40,654 nucleotides of DNA from a virus. The position numbers were made by a program, and so were the translations under genes. Positions 2,999 through 35,782 of the stretch are shown here, piece after piece. The stretch covers positions 1 to 40,654 of the IMG/VR virus record IMGVR_UViG_3300046006_001780. One strand, written 5' to 3'. Numbering within the stretch: the first letter of the stretch is position 1; each line of letters opens with the position of its first letter. The notes beneath the pieces are model-generated. The model saw nothing but the letters and a program-made list of their open reading frames with translations. It searched no databases and was not told the DNA's origin.

Positions 2999-5071
2999 AT
3001 GGCCCGAATCTCCAACGACCAACGCCTGGCCAACCTGCACACCGAGGCCCTCGCGCAATTCGATGACGTGCAAACAGCCCTGCGCGACGAGCGCCTGCAA
3101 TGCCTTCAAGATCGGCGCTTTTACAGCCTCTCGGGCAGCCAGTGGGAGGGTCCGCTTTGGGACCAATATGAAAATAAACCCAAGTTCGAAGTCAACAAGG
3201 TGATGCTGGCCGTGATCCGCATCATCAACGAGTACAGGAACAACAGAATCACCGTGGACTACGTGTCCAAGGACGGCCAAGAAAACGACAAGCTGGCCGA
3301 GGTCTGCGATGGCCTCTACCGTGCAGACGAGCAGGCATCCGTGGCTGACGAGGCCTACGACAACGCCTTCGAGGAAGCAGTCGGGGGCGGCATCGGGGCA
3401 TGGCGTTTGCGCACCGTCTACGAGGATGAGGAAAACGACGAGGACGACCGCCAGCGCATCAGGATCGAGCCCATCTTTGACGCCGACAGCTCAGTGTTCT
3501 TTGACCTCGGGGCCAAGCGCCAGGACAAGAGTGACGCCAAGTTCTGCTTCGTTGTCACCAGCATGACCCGCCAGGCCTACAAAGACACCTGGGGCGATGA
3601 CCCCACCGACTGGCCCAAGATCATTCACCAGTATGAATTCGACTGGTGCACACCCGATGTGGTCTACGTGGCCGAATACTTCAAGGTCGAGGAAAAGACC
3701 GAGACCATTCGCATCTTCCAGGCCATCGACGGCACCGAGGAACGCTACACCCCGGCAGACTTCGCAGCCGACGAGACCCTCGAAGAAACCCTCCGCGCCA
3801 TCGGCACGGTCGAGGTACGCCAAAAGCGAGTCAAGCGCAAGCGCGTTCGCAAGTACATCATGTCCGGTGGTCGCGTGCTGGAAGATGCCGGGTACATCGC
3901 AGGTAAGTGCATCCCCGTCGTGGTGGTGTACGGCAAGCGATGGTTTGTCGATAACGTCGAGCGTTGCATGGGTCACGTGCGCCTTGCCAAAGACGCCCAA
4001 CGCCTCAAGAACATGCAGCTGAGCAAGCTGGGCGAGATCAGCGCCCTGTCGTCGGTCGAGAAGCCCATCCTGACACCTGAGCAAGTCGCAGGCCACCAAG
4101 TCATGTGGTCCGAGGACAACCTCAAGGACTACCCCTACCTGCTCATCAACCCGATCACCGACCAAAACGGCAACCAGGTCGTGTCGGGGCCAGTCGCCTA
4201 CACCCGCGCCCCCAACATCCCCCCGGCAATGGCCGCGCTCTTGCAGATCACCGAGACCGACATGCAGGACATCCTTGGCAACCCCCAAGGCGCAGACAAA
4301 ATGGTCAGCGGCATGTCCGGCAAAGCCGTCGAGATGATCCAGACCCGCGTGGACATGCAGGCCTTCATCTACATGTCCAACTTCGCCAAAGGCATGAAGC
4401 GATGCGGCGAGATTTGGCTCTCGATGGCCAAGGAAATCTACACCGAGGAAAAGCGCAAGATGAAGACCATCGCCGCCGATGGCCAGGCAGGCACGGTCGA
4501 GCTCATGCGCCCCACCATCGATCAAGAGACCGGCGCTGTGGTGCTCGAGAACGACCTCTCCAGCGCCACCTTTGACGTGGTGTCCGAGGTCGGCCCGTCC
4601 AGCACCAGCCGCCGAGACGCCACCGTCAGGGCCATCACCGGCATGTTGCAGATGACCACCGACCCAGAAACCGCTCAGGTGCTCACGGCAGCGGCAATGA
4701 TGAACATGGAAGGCGAGGGCCTCTCAGACCTCAACGCCCACTTCCGCAAGAAGCTGCTGCGCATGGGTGTGATCAAACCCACCGACGACGAGGCCCAAGA
4801 ACTCATGGCAGAGATGCAAGGCCAGCCGCAAGACCCAAACGCCATGTACCTGCAAGCCGCAGCCGAAGAAGCCACGGCCAAAGCAGCCCAGGCCCGTGCC
4901 AACACAGTCAAGACCGTGGCCGATGCCGAACTCAGCCGCGCCAAGACCATCGAGACACTGAGCACCGTGGACATGGACTCCCAAGACCATGCCCTCAACT
5001 TGGCCCAGCAAATCGGCGGCATGGTCCAACAACAAACACAGCCTGTTGTCAATCAACCCACAATTGAGTGA
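2999..5071 (+). CDS. P22-like portal protein (copy 1)
   Basis: The dodecameric portal forms the DNA gate at the capsid vertex, nucleates procapsid assembly with scaffold, and docks the terminase. The 690-residue protein matches the P22-type portal family in size (P22 gp1 has 725) and character: an N-terminal helical region with WEGPLWDQYENKPKFEVNKV near 49-68, an acidic DEENDEDDRQR loop, the basic KRVKRKRVRKY segment, and a long Ala/Gln-rich helical C-terminus (about 630-690) like the P22 barrel. The neighbours are TerL upstream (32-base gap) and scaffold downstream. A second copy at 38303 is 99% identical in protein but clearly diverged at synonymous sites. Confidence 0.93.
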   Translation: MARISNDQRLANLHTEALAQFDDVQTALRDERLQCLQDRRFYSLSGSQWEGPLWDQYENKPKFEVNKVMLAVIRIINEYRNNRITVDYVSKDGQENDKLAEVCDGLYRADEQASVADEAYDNAFEEAVGGGIGAWRLRTVYEDEENDEDDRQRIRIEPIFDADSSVFFDLGAKRQDKSDAKFCFVVTSMTRQAYKDTWGDDPTDWPKIIHQYEFDWCTPDVVYVAEYFKVEEKTETIRIFQAIDGTEERYTPADFAADETLEETLRAIGTVEVRQKRVKRKRVRKYIMSGGRVLEDAGYIAGKCIPVVVVYGKRWFVDNVERCMGHVRLAKDAQRLKNMQLSKLGEISALSSVEKPILTPEQVAGHQVMWSEDNLKDYPYLLINPITDQNGNQVVSGPVAYTRAPNIPPAMAALLQITETDMQDILGNPQGADKMVSGMSGKAVEMIQTRVDMQAFIYMSNFAKGMKRCGEIWLSMAKEIYTEEKRKMKTIAADGQAGTVELMRPTIDQETGAVVLENDLSSATFDVVSEVGPSSTSRRDATVRAITGMLQMTTDPETAQVLTAAAMMNMEGEGLSDLNAHFRKKLLRMGVIKPTDDEAQELMAEMQGQPQDPNAMYLQAAAEEATAKAAQARANTVKTVADAELSRAKTIETLSTVDMDSQDHALNLAQQIGGMVQQQTQPVVNQPTIE

Positions 5072-5081
5072 CAATCGCACA
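5070..5081 (+). repeat. GACAATCGCACA element, right of portal copy 1
   Basis: Second occurrence of the 12-base element, overlapping the portal stop codon and leading into the spacer before the scaffold gene. The following spacer contains an imperfect hairpin (CACC..CGTT / AACGGGTG) that is conserved in the second copy. Confidence 0.65.
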
Positions 5082-5131
5082 CATACGGATTCCACCCGCC
5101 GTTCCAACGGGTGAGTTGCACAGGGTCACAG

Positions 5132-6001
5132 ATGAACATAAAGGCAGATCAGGAGATCGACACCAACGACGATGACACCATCGTCCTCGACGACCAGGAC
5201 ACCGAGCAGCCAGCGGCGCAAGCCGATGACGAGCAGGCCCAGGCCGCCGAAGACGAAGGCGACACCGACGAAGTGGTGGTCTCCATTGGTGAGGAAGCGC
5301 CACCTCCCGAAGAACCAGCACATGCTCCAGAATGGGTGCGCGAGCTGCGCAAAACGAACCGAGAACTTCAGCGCCAGAACCGCGAACTTCAGAGCAAGCT
5401 TCAGACTACCGCCATCACTGAGACCAAGCCGGTGACGTTGGGGCCAAAGCCAAAGCTCGAAGACCACGACTATGACGCCGACAAGTTCGAGACAGCATTG
5501 GCCAATTGGTTTGAGCGCAAGCGACAAGCCGACGAAGCCAACGCCAAGCAAGAAGCCGAGGTTATGACTCAGCAAAAGGCTTGGCAAGCCAAACTGGACG
5601 GCTACGGTAAAGCGAAAGCTGAACTGCGAGTCAAAGACTTTGAAGACGCCGAGGCCGTGGCCCAGGAGTTGTTCAACGTCACCCAGCAAGGCGTGATGCT
5701 GCAAGGTGCGGACAACCCCGCCCTCGTCGTTTACGCACTCGGCAAGAACCCCAAGAAGGCGCAAGAGCTGGCGGCCATCAAAGACCCCGTAAAGTTTGCT
5801 TTTGCGGTAGCGAAACTGGAGAAAGACTTGAAAGTGACGAACCGCAGAGCAGCCCCACCGCCTGAGCGAGTCGTGTCCGGAACAGGGCGCGTCTCGGGGG
5901 CGGTGGACTCAACCCTCGAACGGCTGCGCGAAGAAGCCGCCCGTACTGGCAACATGACCAAGGTCATCCAGTACAAGGCCCAAAAGCGCAGCGCAAAATG
6001 A
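5132..6001 (+). CDS. Scaffolding protein, P22 gp8-like
   Basis: The 289-residue protein sits between portal and coat, exactly where P22 places its 303-residue scaffold. It is highly charged and predicted mostly helical: an acidic N-terminus (residues 1-55, rich in D and E), a coiled-coil stretch with NRELQRQNRELQ at about 76-87, and a basic C-terminal tail ending QYKAQKRSAK. In P22 a basic C-terminal helix-turn-helix binds coat protein, which fits. The start is ATG 5132 and not GTG 5111, because the methionine and the CAGGG before it are preserved in the second copy at 40436. No scaffold protease is visible nearby, as in P22. Confidence 0.85.
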   Translation: MNIKADQEIDTNDDDTIVLDDQDTEQPAAQADDEQAQAAEDEGDTDEVVVSIGEEAPPPEEPAHAPEWVRELRKTNRELQRQNRELQSKLQTTAITETKPVTLGPKPKLEDHDYDADKFETALANWFERKRQADEANAKQEAEVMTQQKAWQAKLDGYGKAKAELRVKDFEDAEAVAQELFNVTQQGVMLQGADNPALVVYALGKNPKKAQELAAIKDPVKFAFAVAKLEKDLKVTNRRAAPPPERVVSGTGRVSGAVDSTLERLREEAARTGNMTKVIQYKAQKRSAK

Positions 6002-17583: not shown

Positions 17584-19512
17584 ATGTCCACACTCTCGAT
17601 TCAAGTACCATTCCCGGTCTTTCAAGACCGGGATGGCCAACCTTTGGACAACGGTTATGTTTGGATTGGCGAGCCAAGTCTGAATGCACAAACCAATCCG
17701 GTTGTGGTTTACTTTGACGCTGCTTTGACCATTCAGGCAGCCCAGCCACTGCGCACCCTCAATGGCTACATCTACCGCAGCGGATCGCCTGCCCAGGTTT
17801 ACGTTGACGGCGTGAACTTCAGCATCTTGGTGCAGGACAGCAAAGGCTCTTTGGTTTACAGCCTACCCAACGGCACGGGCATCAGCCCCAATGCGGCTGG
17901 CATCGTCTACAACCCATCAGGCACGGGCGCTGTGCCAACCACTGTGCAGGCCAAGCTTCGGGAGACTGTCAGCGTCAAGGACTTTGGTGCTGTGGGGGAT
18001 GGGGTAACGGATGACACGGCGGCGATTCAGGCTGCCATTGATAGTGGGGCCAAGGAAATCATAATCCCTTCCGGAACTTATGCACTTGGGTCTTATGTCA
18101 ATGTCGCGTCCAAAACTGATTTAACTATTCGCGGCACAGGAAGTCCCGTGTTGTTCCAGCCGTCTGGAAAAACTACATCCAACGCGTTCAACGTCAGTTT
18201 TTTCCGATTCACCAGTTGCACGAACGTCACTATGACTGGTCTGAAAGTTGATGGCAACCGTGCAGCTTACGCGACGGTGAACACTTACTTTGCAAATGCT
18301 GACAACTTCAGAGTGTTCTGGATTGTCGGTTGCACGAATGTGGCAGTGCAGGATTGCATCTTTGAAGCCTGGCAGGGTGTTGTAGTAAAGGTCATCGCAC
18401 TCGGAGCCAGCGGCGGGGCCACCATTCCCGCCATACGTGCTGACGCTGCACTTCCTGGGTGCGATGGTCTTAAAGTCATTGGCAACACGTTCAGTTATTG
18501 CGGCACGCCTATACAAGTAAACCCAAGCACTAGCTACAACATTTACGTTCAGAACAACACGATCTTCAACACCGACTATTCTGCCGTAACCATTTATCCA
18601 CATGGATATAACGTGTTTGCGCAAGACAACACAATGGAAGAAATCGGACGTGTTACGACTGGCCCACTGCCGAATGATGGATATGCCATCCGATACTACG
18701 AATGTGCTGGCGGCGTCATTTCAGGGAACCAGATCAATAAGTGTGATTACGGCATTGTTCTGCTTTACGGAACCATTGATTTTGTCAACCGCGACATCAA
18801 TATCGTGAGTAATACCATCATTGACGATACTCAATATGGCACGACTGGAGCGTCAATTGCTATTACTGGTGACAATATCCAGATCAGCGGAAATACAGTT
18901 GGTGAAACTTCAACAACAGCCAAATACATTGCAGTTGAACTTGAGGGACACAACATCTCGTTCACCGATAACGTAGTTGAGTATTCTCCCTCGGTGGCAG
19001 GTCAATCGTTCAGGATCGGATACGATGCTATTCACGGCCCTGCGACGTATTCTTGCGACAACATCAATGTGACCAACAACAGGATTGCTGTTACCAGTGG
19101 GTTTTATGGAATTTTGCTTAACCCAGCAGCAACTGCAAGTGGTATCTACATTGGTCAAAATAAGATTACTGGTCAGGCTGGGCCAGAGGTTTATGATCCA
19201 AACAGCGTTGTCATTTACGAAATCACAGGGTCAAAGGCGACAGCCGAGCCGATTGTTGGGACATGGAAACGCGGAGATATTGTTTACAACTCTGCCCCCA
19301 GCGCGGGTAGTGTGTTTGGTTGGGTGTGCGTTACCGCAGGTACGCCGGGGACATGGGTGCCGTTTGCTGGAGTGCAGCCTGCCAACGCTTATACCGTGGC
19401 CAACCCCTCGACAGATCGCGCACTCAATGTGACCGGAGACACGACGGCGCAAGTCGCTGCAGTTCTCGGAACCCTGATCGCTGATTTGCAAGCCAACGGG
19501 GTGTTGAAATGA
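17584..19512 (+). CDS. Tailspike with P22-like head-binding domain and beta-helix
   Basis: This is the receptor-binding and probably polysaccharide-degrading spike, 642 residues. Residues 1-115 resemble the P22 gp9 head-binding domain (PFPVFQDRDGQPLDNGYVWIG, N-rich turn, GYIYRSGSPAQVYVDG). From about 131 there is the typical start of a right-handed beta-helix, DFGAVGDGVTDDTAAIQ, followed by repeated NNTI, NTFSY and GNQI coils to about residue 540. Active-site acids cannot be assigned by eye. From about 18060 the DNA becomes AT-richer than the head-binding part, as expected when receptor-binding modules are exchanged. RBS CAGGAG precedes ATG 17584. Confidence 0.9.
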   Translation: MSTLSIQVPFPVFQDRDGQPLDNGYVWIGEPSLNAQTNPVVVYFDAALTIQAAQPLRTLNGYIYRSGSPAQVYVDGVNFSILVQDSKGSLVYSLPNGTGISPNAAGIVYNPSGTGAVPTTVQAKLRETVSVKDFGAVGDGVTDDTAAIQAAIDSGAKEIIIPSGTYALGSYVNVASKTDLTIRGTGSPVLFQPSGKTTSNAFNVSFFRFTSCTNVTMTGLKVDGNRAAYATVNTYFANADNFRVFWIVGCTNVAVQDCIFEAWQGVVVKVIALGASGGATIPAIRADAALPGCDGLKVIGNTFSYCGTPIQVNPSTSYNIYVQNNTIFNTDYSAVTIYPHGYNVFAQDNTMEEIGRVTTGPLPNDGYAIRYYECAGGVISGNQINKCDYGIVLLYGTIDFVNRDINIVSNTIIDDTQYGTTGASIAITGDNIQISGNTVGETSTTAKYIAVELEGHNISFTDNVVEYSPSVAGQSFRIGYDAIHGPATYSCDNINVTNNRIAVTSGFYGILLNPAATASGIYIGQNKITGQAGPEVYDPNSVVIYEITGSKATAEPIVGTWKRGDIVYNSAPSAGSVFGWVCVTAGTPGTWVPFAGVQPANAYTVANPSTDRALNVTGDTTAQVAAVLGTLIADLQANGVLK

Positions 19513-33395: not shown

Positions 33396-33581
33396 ATGAT
33401 GACCCTTGAGCAAATACGCCACGCCCTCTATGACCGCATGCCCATGAAGGTGGCAGACGCAACCGGCATCCACTACAACACCATCCGCAAGGTGCGCGAT
33501 GATCCCAACGCAAACCCCACACACAAAGTCTTGCAGGCTCTTTCTGACTACCTGGAAAGCCGCAAGGTGACACATGGCTGA
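33396..33581 (+). CDS. Small HTH regulator (Cro/CI-like)
   Basis: The 61-residue protein is close to a bare helix-turn-helix: LEQIRHALYDRM, then MKVADATGIHYNTIRKVRDDP (about 16-36) with the A-x3-G turn and recognition helix, and a final helix HKVLQALSDYLESR. It is the first rightward early gene, next to a putative dyad operator, and could control the divergent promoters. GGAGAAACCCAC precedes ATG 33396; ATG 33399 is an alternative. It overlaps the primase start by eight bases. Confidence 0.85.
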   Translation: MMTLEQIRHALYDRMPMKVADATGIHYNTIRKVRDDPNANPTHKVLQALSDYLESRKVTHG

Positions 33582-35625
33582 CCTCTCCAACGTCCTCGGC
33601 GGCCCTTGGTCGCCGCCACCAGAGAAACTGCTTGCGCCACCAGAAGCGCAGCTTATTGATGCCATCAAAGCCGCAGGCCTTGAGCCGCCAGACCACATCG
33701 AGATGGATGGCAAGATTCACCGCTTCAAGTCCGGCACCAAGGGCACGCCAGGCATCGATAAGCCGGGCTGGTATCTGGTGTTTGGCGATGGCATCCCAGC
33801 CGGTCGCTTTGGCTGCTGGCGTGCAGGCATCGAGGTGACATGGCGTGCAGACGTTGGCCGCAAGCTCACCGAGTTTGAGGAAATGGCCCACGCCAGGCGA
33901 ATTAACGAGTCCAAGGTTTTGCGCGAAGCCGCCCAAGAGCGCCAGCACCAGGTGGCCAGCGAGACGGTGGAAAAAATCTGGCTCAGTGGCGGCGCAGCTC
34001 ACCCCGATCACCCCTACCTCAAGCGCAAGGGCATTCAGACCCACGGCGTGCGCATCACTGGGGACGGACGATTGATGGCCCCCCTCTACGATCAGGACGG
34101 CACCCTCAGCACCCTGCAATATATCGACGAGGACGGCGGCAAGCTCTACCACCCAGGCGGCAAGTCGGGCGGCAAATTCTGGATGGTAGGCTCACTGGAT
34201 GAGCCGGGCACGCTGTACGTTGCCGAGGGCTTCGCCACTGCGGCCACAATCCACGAAACCACCAACCGCCCCTGCATCGTTGCTTACAGCGCCAGCAGCC
34301 TCGTGCCGGTCATCGCCAGCCTGCGCGAGATGTACGGCGCAACCCAGGACATCGTTATCGTGGCAGACCATGACAAACACGGCGTCGGCCAACGCTACGC
34401 AGACCAAGCCAGCGCCAAGTACGGGGCCAAGGTCATCATGCCACCCATCGAAGGCATGGACGCCAACGACTACGCCCAGGCAGGGCACGATCTCATGGCG
34501 CTCTTGGTTCAGCAAACCGGATCAGCTGTGATCGATAAGCTCAAGGTCATCTTTGGCGATCAGCTGGGCAGCGACTACGAGGCACCAGACGAGCTGGTCG
34601 AAGGCCTCATGACTATTGGCAGCTCAGTCGTAGTCTACGGTGACAGCAACTCAGGCAAGACATTTTGGGCACTCTCAGTGGCCACAGCCATCGCCACGGG
34701 ATCGGACTGCTACGGCCTCAAGACCGACCCCGGCCTCGTTATCTACTTGGCCAGCGAAGCCCCCGGCAGCATCAGATCCAGGATGCAGGCCATCAAAAAG
34801 TATTACGGCTGTGACCTGGCTAACCTTGCAATGGTCCCGGTGCCCATGAACTTTTACAACGGCGACCAAGACGCCCATGACGTCATCGAACTGGTCAGGG
34901 CCATTGAAAAGATCAAAGGCCAGCGCGTTAGGCTCATCATTGGCGACACGCTGGCCAGAATGAGCGCAGGGGCCAACGAAAACAGCGGCGAGGACATGGG
35001 GCCAGTAATGGCCAGATTCGACCAGGTGGCCACGGCCACAGGTGCCGCCCTCATGATCATTCACCACAACGGAAAAGACGCCGCCAAGGGCGCACGGGGC
35101 TGGTCAGGCATCCGCGCCCACATCGACACCGAGATTGAGGTGGTGGAGAAAGAAGGCATCCGCTCAGTCACCGTCACCAAGCAACGCGAACTCCCCAGCA
35201 AAGGCGAAACCATCTATTTCAAGCTGGAGATCATCGAGATGGGCACCACCAAGTTTGGCAGCCCAGCCACCACCTGCGTGGCTGTTCCGGATGAGGAAGC
35301 TATTGCCACAAATCCACACAAAAAACCAACAAAGCATGACGAAAACATGCGTACCATTGAGCGATCATGGTGGGACAGCAAAGCCGAAATGCGTAATGGT
35401 TTTCCCTACATTAGCCGATCAGCCCTCAAAGACTTTTTGGTCAAAAACGGGTCTACTGAGCGAACAGCCAGGAACAAAACAGAGGCATCCAGGCCAGGAT
35501 CATTGATCCTGGAAATGCTCAATGCAGAGGTTTTGCAGGCTTTTGAACATGGCTGGATTTTCATCAATGACGCTCAAGTCAGCGCCATGATGATGCAAAA
35601 AAACGGGGGGAAATCTTGCCCCTAA
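33574..35625 (+). CDS. Primase-helicase (Toprim plus RecA-like helicase)
   Basis: The 683-residue replication protein joins two enzymes. Residues about 130-315 form a Toprim primase domain: E218 in VAEGFATA, D265 and D267 in ADHDKHG. Residues about 325-580 form a hexameric RepA/DnaB-like ATPase: Walker A GDSNSGKT (356-363), IYLASEAPGS, Walker B LIIGDTLARM and a HHNGKDAAKGARG segment. The C-terminal 80 residues look like a small DNA-binding domain. No DNA polymerase is encoded in the window, so host polymerase III is likely recruited. The iteron cluster at the gene's 3' end may be its origin. Confidence 0.88.
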   Translation: MADLSNVLGGPWSPPPEKLLAPPEAQLIDAIKAAGLEPPDHIEMDGKIHRFKSGTKGTPGIDKPGWYLVFGDGIPAGRFGCWRAGIEVTWRADVGRKLTEFEEMAHARRINESKVLREAAQERQHQVASETVEKIWLSGGAAHPDHPYLKRKGIQTHGVRITGDGRLMAPLYDQDGTLSTLQYIDEDGGKLYHPGGKSGGKFWMVGSLDEPGTLYVAEGFATAATIHETTNRPCIVAYSASSLVPVIASLREMYGATQDIVIVADHDKHGVGQRYADQASAKYGAKVIMPPIEGMDANDYAQAGHDLMALLVQQTGSAVIDKLKVIFGDQLGSDYEAPDELVEGLMTIGSSVVVYGDSNSGKTFWALSVATAIATGSDCYGLKTDPGLVIYLASEAPGSIRSRMQAIKKYYGCDLANLAMVPVPMNFYNGDQDAHDVIELVRAIEKIKGQRVRLIIGDTLARMSAGANENSGEDMGPVMARFDQVATATGAALMIIHHNGKDAAKGARGWSGIRAHIDTEIEVVEKEGIRSVTVTKQRELPSKGETIYFKLEIIEMGTTKFGSPATTCVAVPDEEAIATNPHKKPTKHDENMRTIERSWWDSKAEMRNGFPYISRSALKDFLVKNGSTERTARNKTEASRPGSLILEMLNAEVLQAFEHGWIFINDAQVSAMMMQKNGGKSCP

Positions 35626-35667
35626 TGCCCCTCGCTGCCCCTAGGGGTAAAAGGGGCAAAAGGGGCA
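35617..35667. repeat. Symmetric iteron array (3x TGCCCCT, 3x inverted)
   Basis: Three TGCCCCT units (35617-35623, 35626-35632, 35636-35642) run with 9-10 base period straight into three inverted units AGGGGTA (35643-35649), AGGGGCA (35652-35658) and AGGGGCA (35661-35667). The axis is between 35642 and 35643. The first unit overlaps the primase-helicase stop. Such ordered arrays are typical of initiator binding sites; the RNA would also fold strongly. Confidence 0.75.
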
Positions 35668-35681
35668 AAAGCCCGGAAATA

Positions 35682-35726
35682 TGCCCCTCCCCTCCCCTTC
35701 CCCTTATAGGGAAGGGGAAAGGGGCA
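35682..35726. repeat. Nested GC-rich palindrome next to iteron array
   Basis: The same unit TGCCCCT (35682-35688) pairs with AGGGGCA (35720-35726) outside an inner perfect stem CCCCTTCCC (35694-35702) / GGGAAGGGG (35709-35717) with loop CTTATA. One strand is almost pure pyrimidine over about 20 bases. With the adjacent array this makes a likely replication origin or strong regulatory stem; no T-tract follows, so it is not a simple terminator. Confidence 0.7.
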
Positions 35727-35782
35727 ACCGGGATGCGGCGAAAAAAGGCAGATTATTCACATCAATGTAAGGAATCACTAAC

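Follow-up and report, generated by a model that had tools for sequence, protein, structure and literature searches.

The window analysed here, i.e., the whole of the 40,654-bp IMG/VR viral record IMGVR_UViG_3300046006_001780, carries at the 3' end of its primase-helicase gene an iteron array combined with a hairpin, which very probably forms a phage replication origin read by the primase-helicase encoded just upstream; origin activity and binding are inferred. Computation established the layout of this element, its coupling to the primase gene, the co-variation of repeat unit and protein domain, the exchange of domain and array together, the covariation within the hairpin, and an enrichment of DnaA boxes. 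Criteria of an iteron origin were thus seen, namely multiple short repeats near an initiator gene and a unit that co-varies with a domain of the replication protein. An initiator-binding origin at this place, as put forward in the original prediction, is supported and remains the best fit to the data, its activity being inferred and not shown.

In the window, the array begins at the stop codon of a gene for a Toprim primase and RSF1010-RepA-type helicase, in agreement with the predicted location at the 3' end of that gene. The element and its flanks comprise:

35616..35668, + strand: repeat array / hairpin I, three direct and three inverted units (one imperfect)
35617-35623, 35626-35632 and 35636-35642: direct units, TGCCCCT
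35643-35649: third inverted unit, imperfect (AGGGGTA), abutting the axis at 35642/35643
35652-35658 and 35661-35667: inverted units, AGGGGCA, exact
35661..35671, + strand: AGGGGCAAAAG, invariant in the TGCCCCT family; its GGGGCAAAA-like core often precedes hairpin II
35672..35732, + strand: hairpin II, with outer stem, unit arms, apical stem and TATA-type loop
35672-35676 / 35728-35732: enclosing outer stem of hairpin II, CCCGG/CCGGG
35682-35688 / 35720-35726: outer unit arms of hairpin II
35693-35702 / 35709-35718: inner perfect 10-bp stem of hairpin II, TCCCCTTCCC/GGGAAGGGGA
35733..35738, + strand: ATGCGG 3' of hairpin II (in others ATGCAG, GTGCGG, ACGCGG or TCGCGG)
35753..35761, + strand: TTATTCACA, a degenerate DnaA box; a perfect TTATCCACA stands there in most close relatives

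Within 111 bp there are seven exact copies and one imperfect copy of TGCCCCT/AGGGGCA; the 40,654-bp record as a whole has ten TGCCCCT copies, all but three of them inside the array/hairpin region. The largest 7-mer cluster per 110 bp has seven members in the record, compared to a maximum of four in 60 first-order Markov simulations, which upholds the claim that order and repetition go beyond simple low complexity; a scan of the record for further 7-mer clusters of at least four found none besides the TGCCCCT array. The predicted layout of three direct units meeting three inverted units at an exact axis was recovered, except that the third inverted unit is imperfect, and two dimensions had to be corrected: the palindrome follows the array after 14 bases (not 15), and its inner perfect stem measures 10 bp (not 9). 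The single-strand fold of the element beats 200 of 200 dinucleotide shuffles (z -3.8 as RNA, z -4.3 as DNA), with a T-G closing pair at the apical part of hairpin II in the window.

The upstream genes and the parts of the primase-helicase considered as candidate reader are:

33396..33578, + strand: small Cro-like helix-turn-helix regulator, 61 aa, overlapping the primase start (PHROG transcription regulator match)
33574..35625, + strand: primase-helicase with Toprim_3 primase, RepA/RecA-type helicase (AAA_25) and C-terminal winged-helix-like domain (Pfam, RSF1010 RepA match, AlphaFold model)
35326..35568, + strand: C-terminal domain, aa 585-665, candidate iteron-reading domain (AlphaFold pLDDT 83, helix-turn-helix plus wing topology)
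35452..35502, + strand: codons of aa 627-643, with candidate specificity residues N634, K635, E637, R640 and P641 (column ranking)

RSF1010 RepA (1g8y, E 3e-15) is the only solved relative of the helicase by sequence, and the full-length AlphaFold model is similar to both T7 gp4 and RepA. Toprim primase and helicase are present in one chain; the C-terminal winged helix is there only as a predicted fold, since a Foldseek search with the model of this domain returned mostly winged-helix proteins as top matches, none of them significant among PDB structures, and a Pfam search of the domain gave no match below E 0.02. Downstream follow a small ORF, a DUF6378 gene, the small and large terminase genes and a P22-type portal gene, terS lying approximately 560 bp downstream of the array. 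The array sits between early and late rightward genes. A plasmid search for the primase found no full-length relative, and there is therefore no natural minimal replicon for comparison. The Cro-like regulator was considered as a reader of the units and excluded, because it is near-identical (one residue difference) in two relatives with different units (L574, CGTACC; L579, CGGACC).

About 200 related phage sequences were compared in total, most of them metagenomic contigs without known host. The element is found at the stop codon in every close relative (80 contigs, primase 76-92% identical) that reaches past the primase gene, and all of these carry units and layout; a lack of conservation in close relatives, which would have refuted the original prediction, is therefore not what we see. 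Within 400 bp around the stop codon, 95 non-redundant loci showed a median of eight copies of one 6-mer versus three in controls (coding DNA of the same genes, n=90), and an array of at least six copies was present at the same place in 84 of the 95 non-redundant relatives versus one of the 90 controls. The order of parts does not vary: the repeat array comes first, then the GGGGCAAAA motif, then a short-looped hairpin whose arms are units, and finally nTGCGG. This layout persists across primases of about 40% identity; no array was found in the distant relatives L512 and L513. The distance from array to stop codon is not fixed, because the array lies farther away in L208 and L573 and behind an inserted gene in L089 and L557. 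Four of the 80 close-relative contigs (L011, L042, L057, L073) end in or at the element, probably reflecting assembly breaks at hairpins. Nine contigs (L047, L053, L054, L055, L060, L061, L068, L079 and L083) carry, just after the primase, an element termed type B (e.g., L055:5120-5320), in which another hairpin II is followed by a T-run, and several of them have a sigma70-like promoter and CCTATAGG motifs before a small gene; this has the look of a gene cassette that was inserted and is transcribed separately.

The large stem-loop just 3' of the primase-helicase gene keeps its structure without sequence conservation. The 13 seed sequences of a covariance model have standard pairing at every one of its 29 pairs, and at six hairpin pairs both partners have changed (22 cells); neither the covariation cell count nor the score was matched in any of 500 shuffles, and 4 of 500 reached six two-sided pairs. 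In most relatives the conserved apical part consists of a bulge of two bases, three base pairs of varying sequence and a loop of TATA. G-T pairs are absent from the seed alignment and occupy 5 of approximately 2,060 pair cells in two overlapping wider alignments, in which A-C pairs are absent. These alignments were fitted to the model and are hence biased, and the near-absence of G-T pairs leans towards a structure at the DNA level without proving it.

The repeat unit itself is highly variable, with more than a dozen types in total (TGCCCCT, TGACCCT, CGGACC, CGTACC, GGTACC, GGAACG, GGTAAC, GGTTCA, GGTACA, GGGACA and others), the classes having been defined after inspection of the data. Named phages with primases 36-41% identical display the same layout 3' of the gene, with units GGGGACA in Salicola phage CGphi29, GGTTCA in Alteromonas phages XX1924 and PB15, and GGTACA in Idiomarinaceae phage 1N2-2, and 67 further contigs contributed TGACCCT, CGGACC, CGTACC, GGTACC, GGAACG, GGTAAC, GGGACAA, GGGGCAAA, GGGGAAA and others. 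Written on a single strand, most units match GG-N-N-(C/A)-N by our own reading of the list. GGGCAAA (or a variant) before hairpin II and nTGCGG after it are kept with many units, although not with all. Searching bacterial genomes with a broad DNA pattern yielded chance matches only, as judged by regular expression and reading. Four other viral contigs found as pattern matches (L175, L217, L196, L229) have short inverted repeats of TGGAAC or GGGGCA type beside TTATCCACA, which are possibly further origins of a similar kind with another initiator.

The element goes with the primase and not with the terminase, because a set of 80 contigs picked for a 78-98% identical large terminase mostly lacked it, and because L208 combines the unit and primase family of the window with a different terminase. 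The contigs with a similar terminase that were inspected (L091, L099, L136, L152) have another primase and another unit; in L091 (GGTAAC) and in L099 and L152 (GGAACG), this primase still belongs to the wider family. The terminase was thus ruled out as the partner.

The unit switches no fewer than 18 times on a tree built from primase residues 1-570, in which sequences with CGTACC and with CGGACC are interleaved. We ranked alignment columns by how well they separate different-unit from same-unit pairs, using pairs 72-96% identical over residues 1-570 and excluding the same-unit pairs of the big GCCCCT family, which share clade history. The top four columns (641, 640, 633, 634) all map to the predicted helix 629-636 or the turn after it. 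Once the GCCCCT family is included, column 640 comes second and other protein columns are also high, as expected from shared ancestry. Among 11 interleaved sequences, Y640-P641 accompanies CGGACC (five sequences) and S640-A641 accompanies CGTACC (six). A second CGGACC clade (L576, L579) relies on different residues, SQG or GQG, and the code is therefore not one residue per base. Residue 637 is acidic (D/E) with TGCCCCT in the clades of the window and of L373, and N with TGACCCT in the clades of L518 and L524. Contacts of Asn with adenine and of acidic residues with cytosine are common in DNA readout; a contact of this kind by residue 637 is not shown. The sequence pairs are not independent, and a strict test on independent pairs was left with only two usable pairs on well-supported branches, with which significance cannot be reached. 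The proposal that the C-terminal domain of the primase-helicase is the reader gains support from this co-variation, in the absence of binding data.

Where the unit differs, primases 95-99% identical over residues 1-560 may be only 40-45% identical in the C-terminal domain, as in L575/L576 (99% and 41%; units CGTACC/CGGACC), L517/L297 (98% and 40%), L517/L373 (97% and 40%) and L520/L522 (95% and 42%). By comparison, the C-terminal domains of 800 same-unit pairs at 92-99.5% have a mean identity of 86% and a minimum of 64%. Switches of the L527/L533 type (92-93% in the N-terminal part, 64% in the C-terminal domain) equal this minimum and are weaker evidence. L520 and L522 cease to be similar in DNA where the C-terminal domain starts and become similar again at ACGATGCG past the hairpin, the next 300 bp being 88-97% identical; this is a swap of domain and array together. 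Domain and array can be exchanged in one recombination event because they are neighbours. A TGCCCCT group (L373, L514, L515) and a TGACCCT group (L518, L563, L564, L570, L571) show fixed differences at only five positions of the last 357 aa, D637N among them, alongside which the array units changed together from GCCCCT to GACCCT, and the flanking DNA of L515 and L518 is mostly 89-100% identical.

In the 350 nt that follow the primase, the strict DnaA box is enriched 19-fold, a perfect box being present in 34 of 96 loci, and L091, L152 and L523 have two boxes before the array and one after it. Several clades, among them those with CGTACC and CGGACC, have no DnaA boxes, and the window has only the degenerate box; help by DnaA is therefore not universal. 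A lone perfect box, TTATCCACA, lies at 18594-18602 of the window, far from the array. A turn of GC skew near 35.7 kb, which the original prediction had offered as a check, is not clear there or elsewhere, and skew is thus uninformative. In L089 a host-type gene resembling 1-acyl-glycerol-3-phosphate acyltransferase (PlsC-like, 4320-5220) has been inserted between the primase (stop at 4215) and the array (5181-5380), behind which array and DnaA boxes are intact. In L557 (4990-5430) a DNA methyltransferase-like gene separates the primase from a GGTACA array; its close relatives L561 and L562 have GGGACA directly after the primase and different recognition residues.

Since co-variation demonstrates a reader and not an origin, the array between early and late genes could instead be an operator, bound by the primase-helicase or another phage protein and controlling the early-to-late transition or the enzyme's own level, with the true origin elsewhere, and the sigma70-like promoter and T-run just after the element in some relatives (type B, e.g., L053 and L055) would fit such a role. 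However, a primase-helicase is improbable as a repressor, a promoter at the element is missing in most relatives, DnaA boxes are concentrated around it, and the Cro-like regulator is excluded as reader, which leaves the operator an outside chance. A structured cis-acting RNA, which might control read-through, act as a put-like antiterminator or stabilise the 3' end of the primase mRNA, could account for the strong fold, the compensatory changes and the conserved bulge and loop, but it leaves unexplained the joint change of all unit copies and their co-variation with a protein domain. We regard it as very improbable, given the scarcity of G-T cells (counted with the bias mentioned above), the array kept behind inserted genes, and the lack of a + strand terminator in the window and of any Rfam family above threshold (the sole match in the window was a sub-threshold CRISPR repeat, E 0.94); the RNA stem limiting read-through that had been envisaged earlier lacks support on the first three of these grounds.

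A packaging site of the cos or pac kind, with the small terminase as its reader, would suit the proximity of terS. Against it, this array is replaced by another or missing in phages whose large terminase is 78-98% identical, the unit recurs in L208 beside a different terminase, and the element follows the primase gene and not the terminase genes, for which reasons we give a packaging site hardly any credence. Just as little can be said for functionless hairpin repeats left by replication slippage or template switching. Template switching would likewise produce perfect inverted repeats lacking G-T intermediates, but the persistence of the repeats across primases of about 40% identity, the conserved flanking motifs and the coupling to a protein domain speak against this reading.

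A replication origin combining array and hairpin has partial counterparts in known systems, although an incomplete literature search found no paper describing this combination for these phages. In the Sulfolobus plasmid pRN1 a stem-loop 3' of the primase-helicase gene is required for replication, and Bordetella phage BIP-1 has been proposed as a phage counterpart (PMC4234260). The likeness extends to a repressor gene, a multifunctional primase-helicase gene with a C-terminal winged helix (here only predicted), and a stem-loop just 3' of the gene whose structure is kept while its sequence varies. pRN1 differs in having an archaeo-eukaryotic primase, an SF3 helicase and no iterons, whereas the phages studied here have a Toprim_3 primase and an AAA_25/RepA-type helicase, along with iterons whose sequence varies together with the protein. 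The alpha protein of phage P4 unites Toprim primase, helicase and a C-terminal winged-helix iteron-binding domain, with iterons at ori and crr (PMC4234260). The window protein resembles it in joining Toprim primase and helicase in a single chain, the winged helix being only a predicted fold, and differs in helicase family. Replication of P4 depends on two sites that lie apart, ori1 and crr. The oriV of RSF1010 works with RepA, RepB', RepC and ssi hairpins (PMC4234260). Its RepA is a relative of the window helicase, and both systems have iterons and hairpins, which in RSF1010 are priming sites; however, RSF1010 uses three proteins instead of one and another primase family, and hairpin priming is not shown in the window. 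In lambdoid phages the iterons lie inside the gene of the initiator O (PMC7466680). Initiator and origin are thereby linked, as they are here, but O is neither primase nor helicase and its iterons are intragenic, whereas the window group has many more unit types, a 3' position and hairpins. Lambdoid O/ori pairs show type specificity between phages.

We propose that at this putative origin the C-terminal winged-helix-like domain would bind the 7-bp units as double-stranded DNA and that the bound proteins would load or assemble the RepA-type helicase ring, helped in some phages by host DnaA at adjacent TTATCCACA boxes. Unwinding would expose hairpin II, whose nearly unit-independent flanks (GGGGCAAAA, nTGCGG) may place the Toprim primase where the first primer is made. 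Unit binding, melting, the use of hairpin II or its flanks as priming sites, and origin activity are all inferred. Domain and array may have been exchanged jointly by recombination, or may have changed by point substitution with concerted change of the array. It is an even bet, in our judgement, that C-terminal domain and array are exchangeable specificity cassettes that swap as one piece between phages otherwise almost identical and create replication-incompatibility types, with a winged-helix code readable from natural pairs (such as an acidic residue 637 with TGCCCCT and Asn637 with TGACCCT), the pressure behind this possibly being to escape decoy or co-infecting origins.

The finding points to the origin of a widespread, little-studied phage group and to its reader protein. 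Because there are more than a dozen unit types, and the unit can differ even where primases share up to 99% identity over residues 1-560, DNA recognition by the initiator could be tested by simple swaps. The repeated change of the unit together with the matching part of the enzyme amounts to a natural experiment on protein-DNA recognition, and the switching suggests that there is selection on origin identity.
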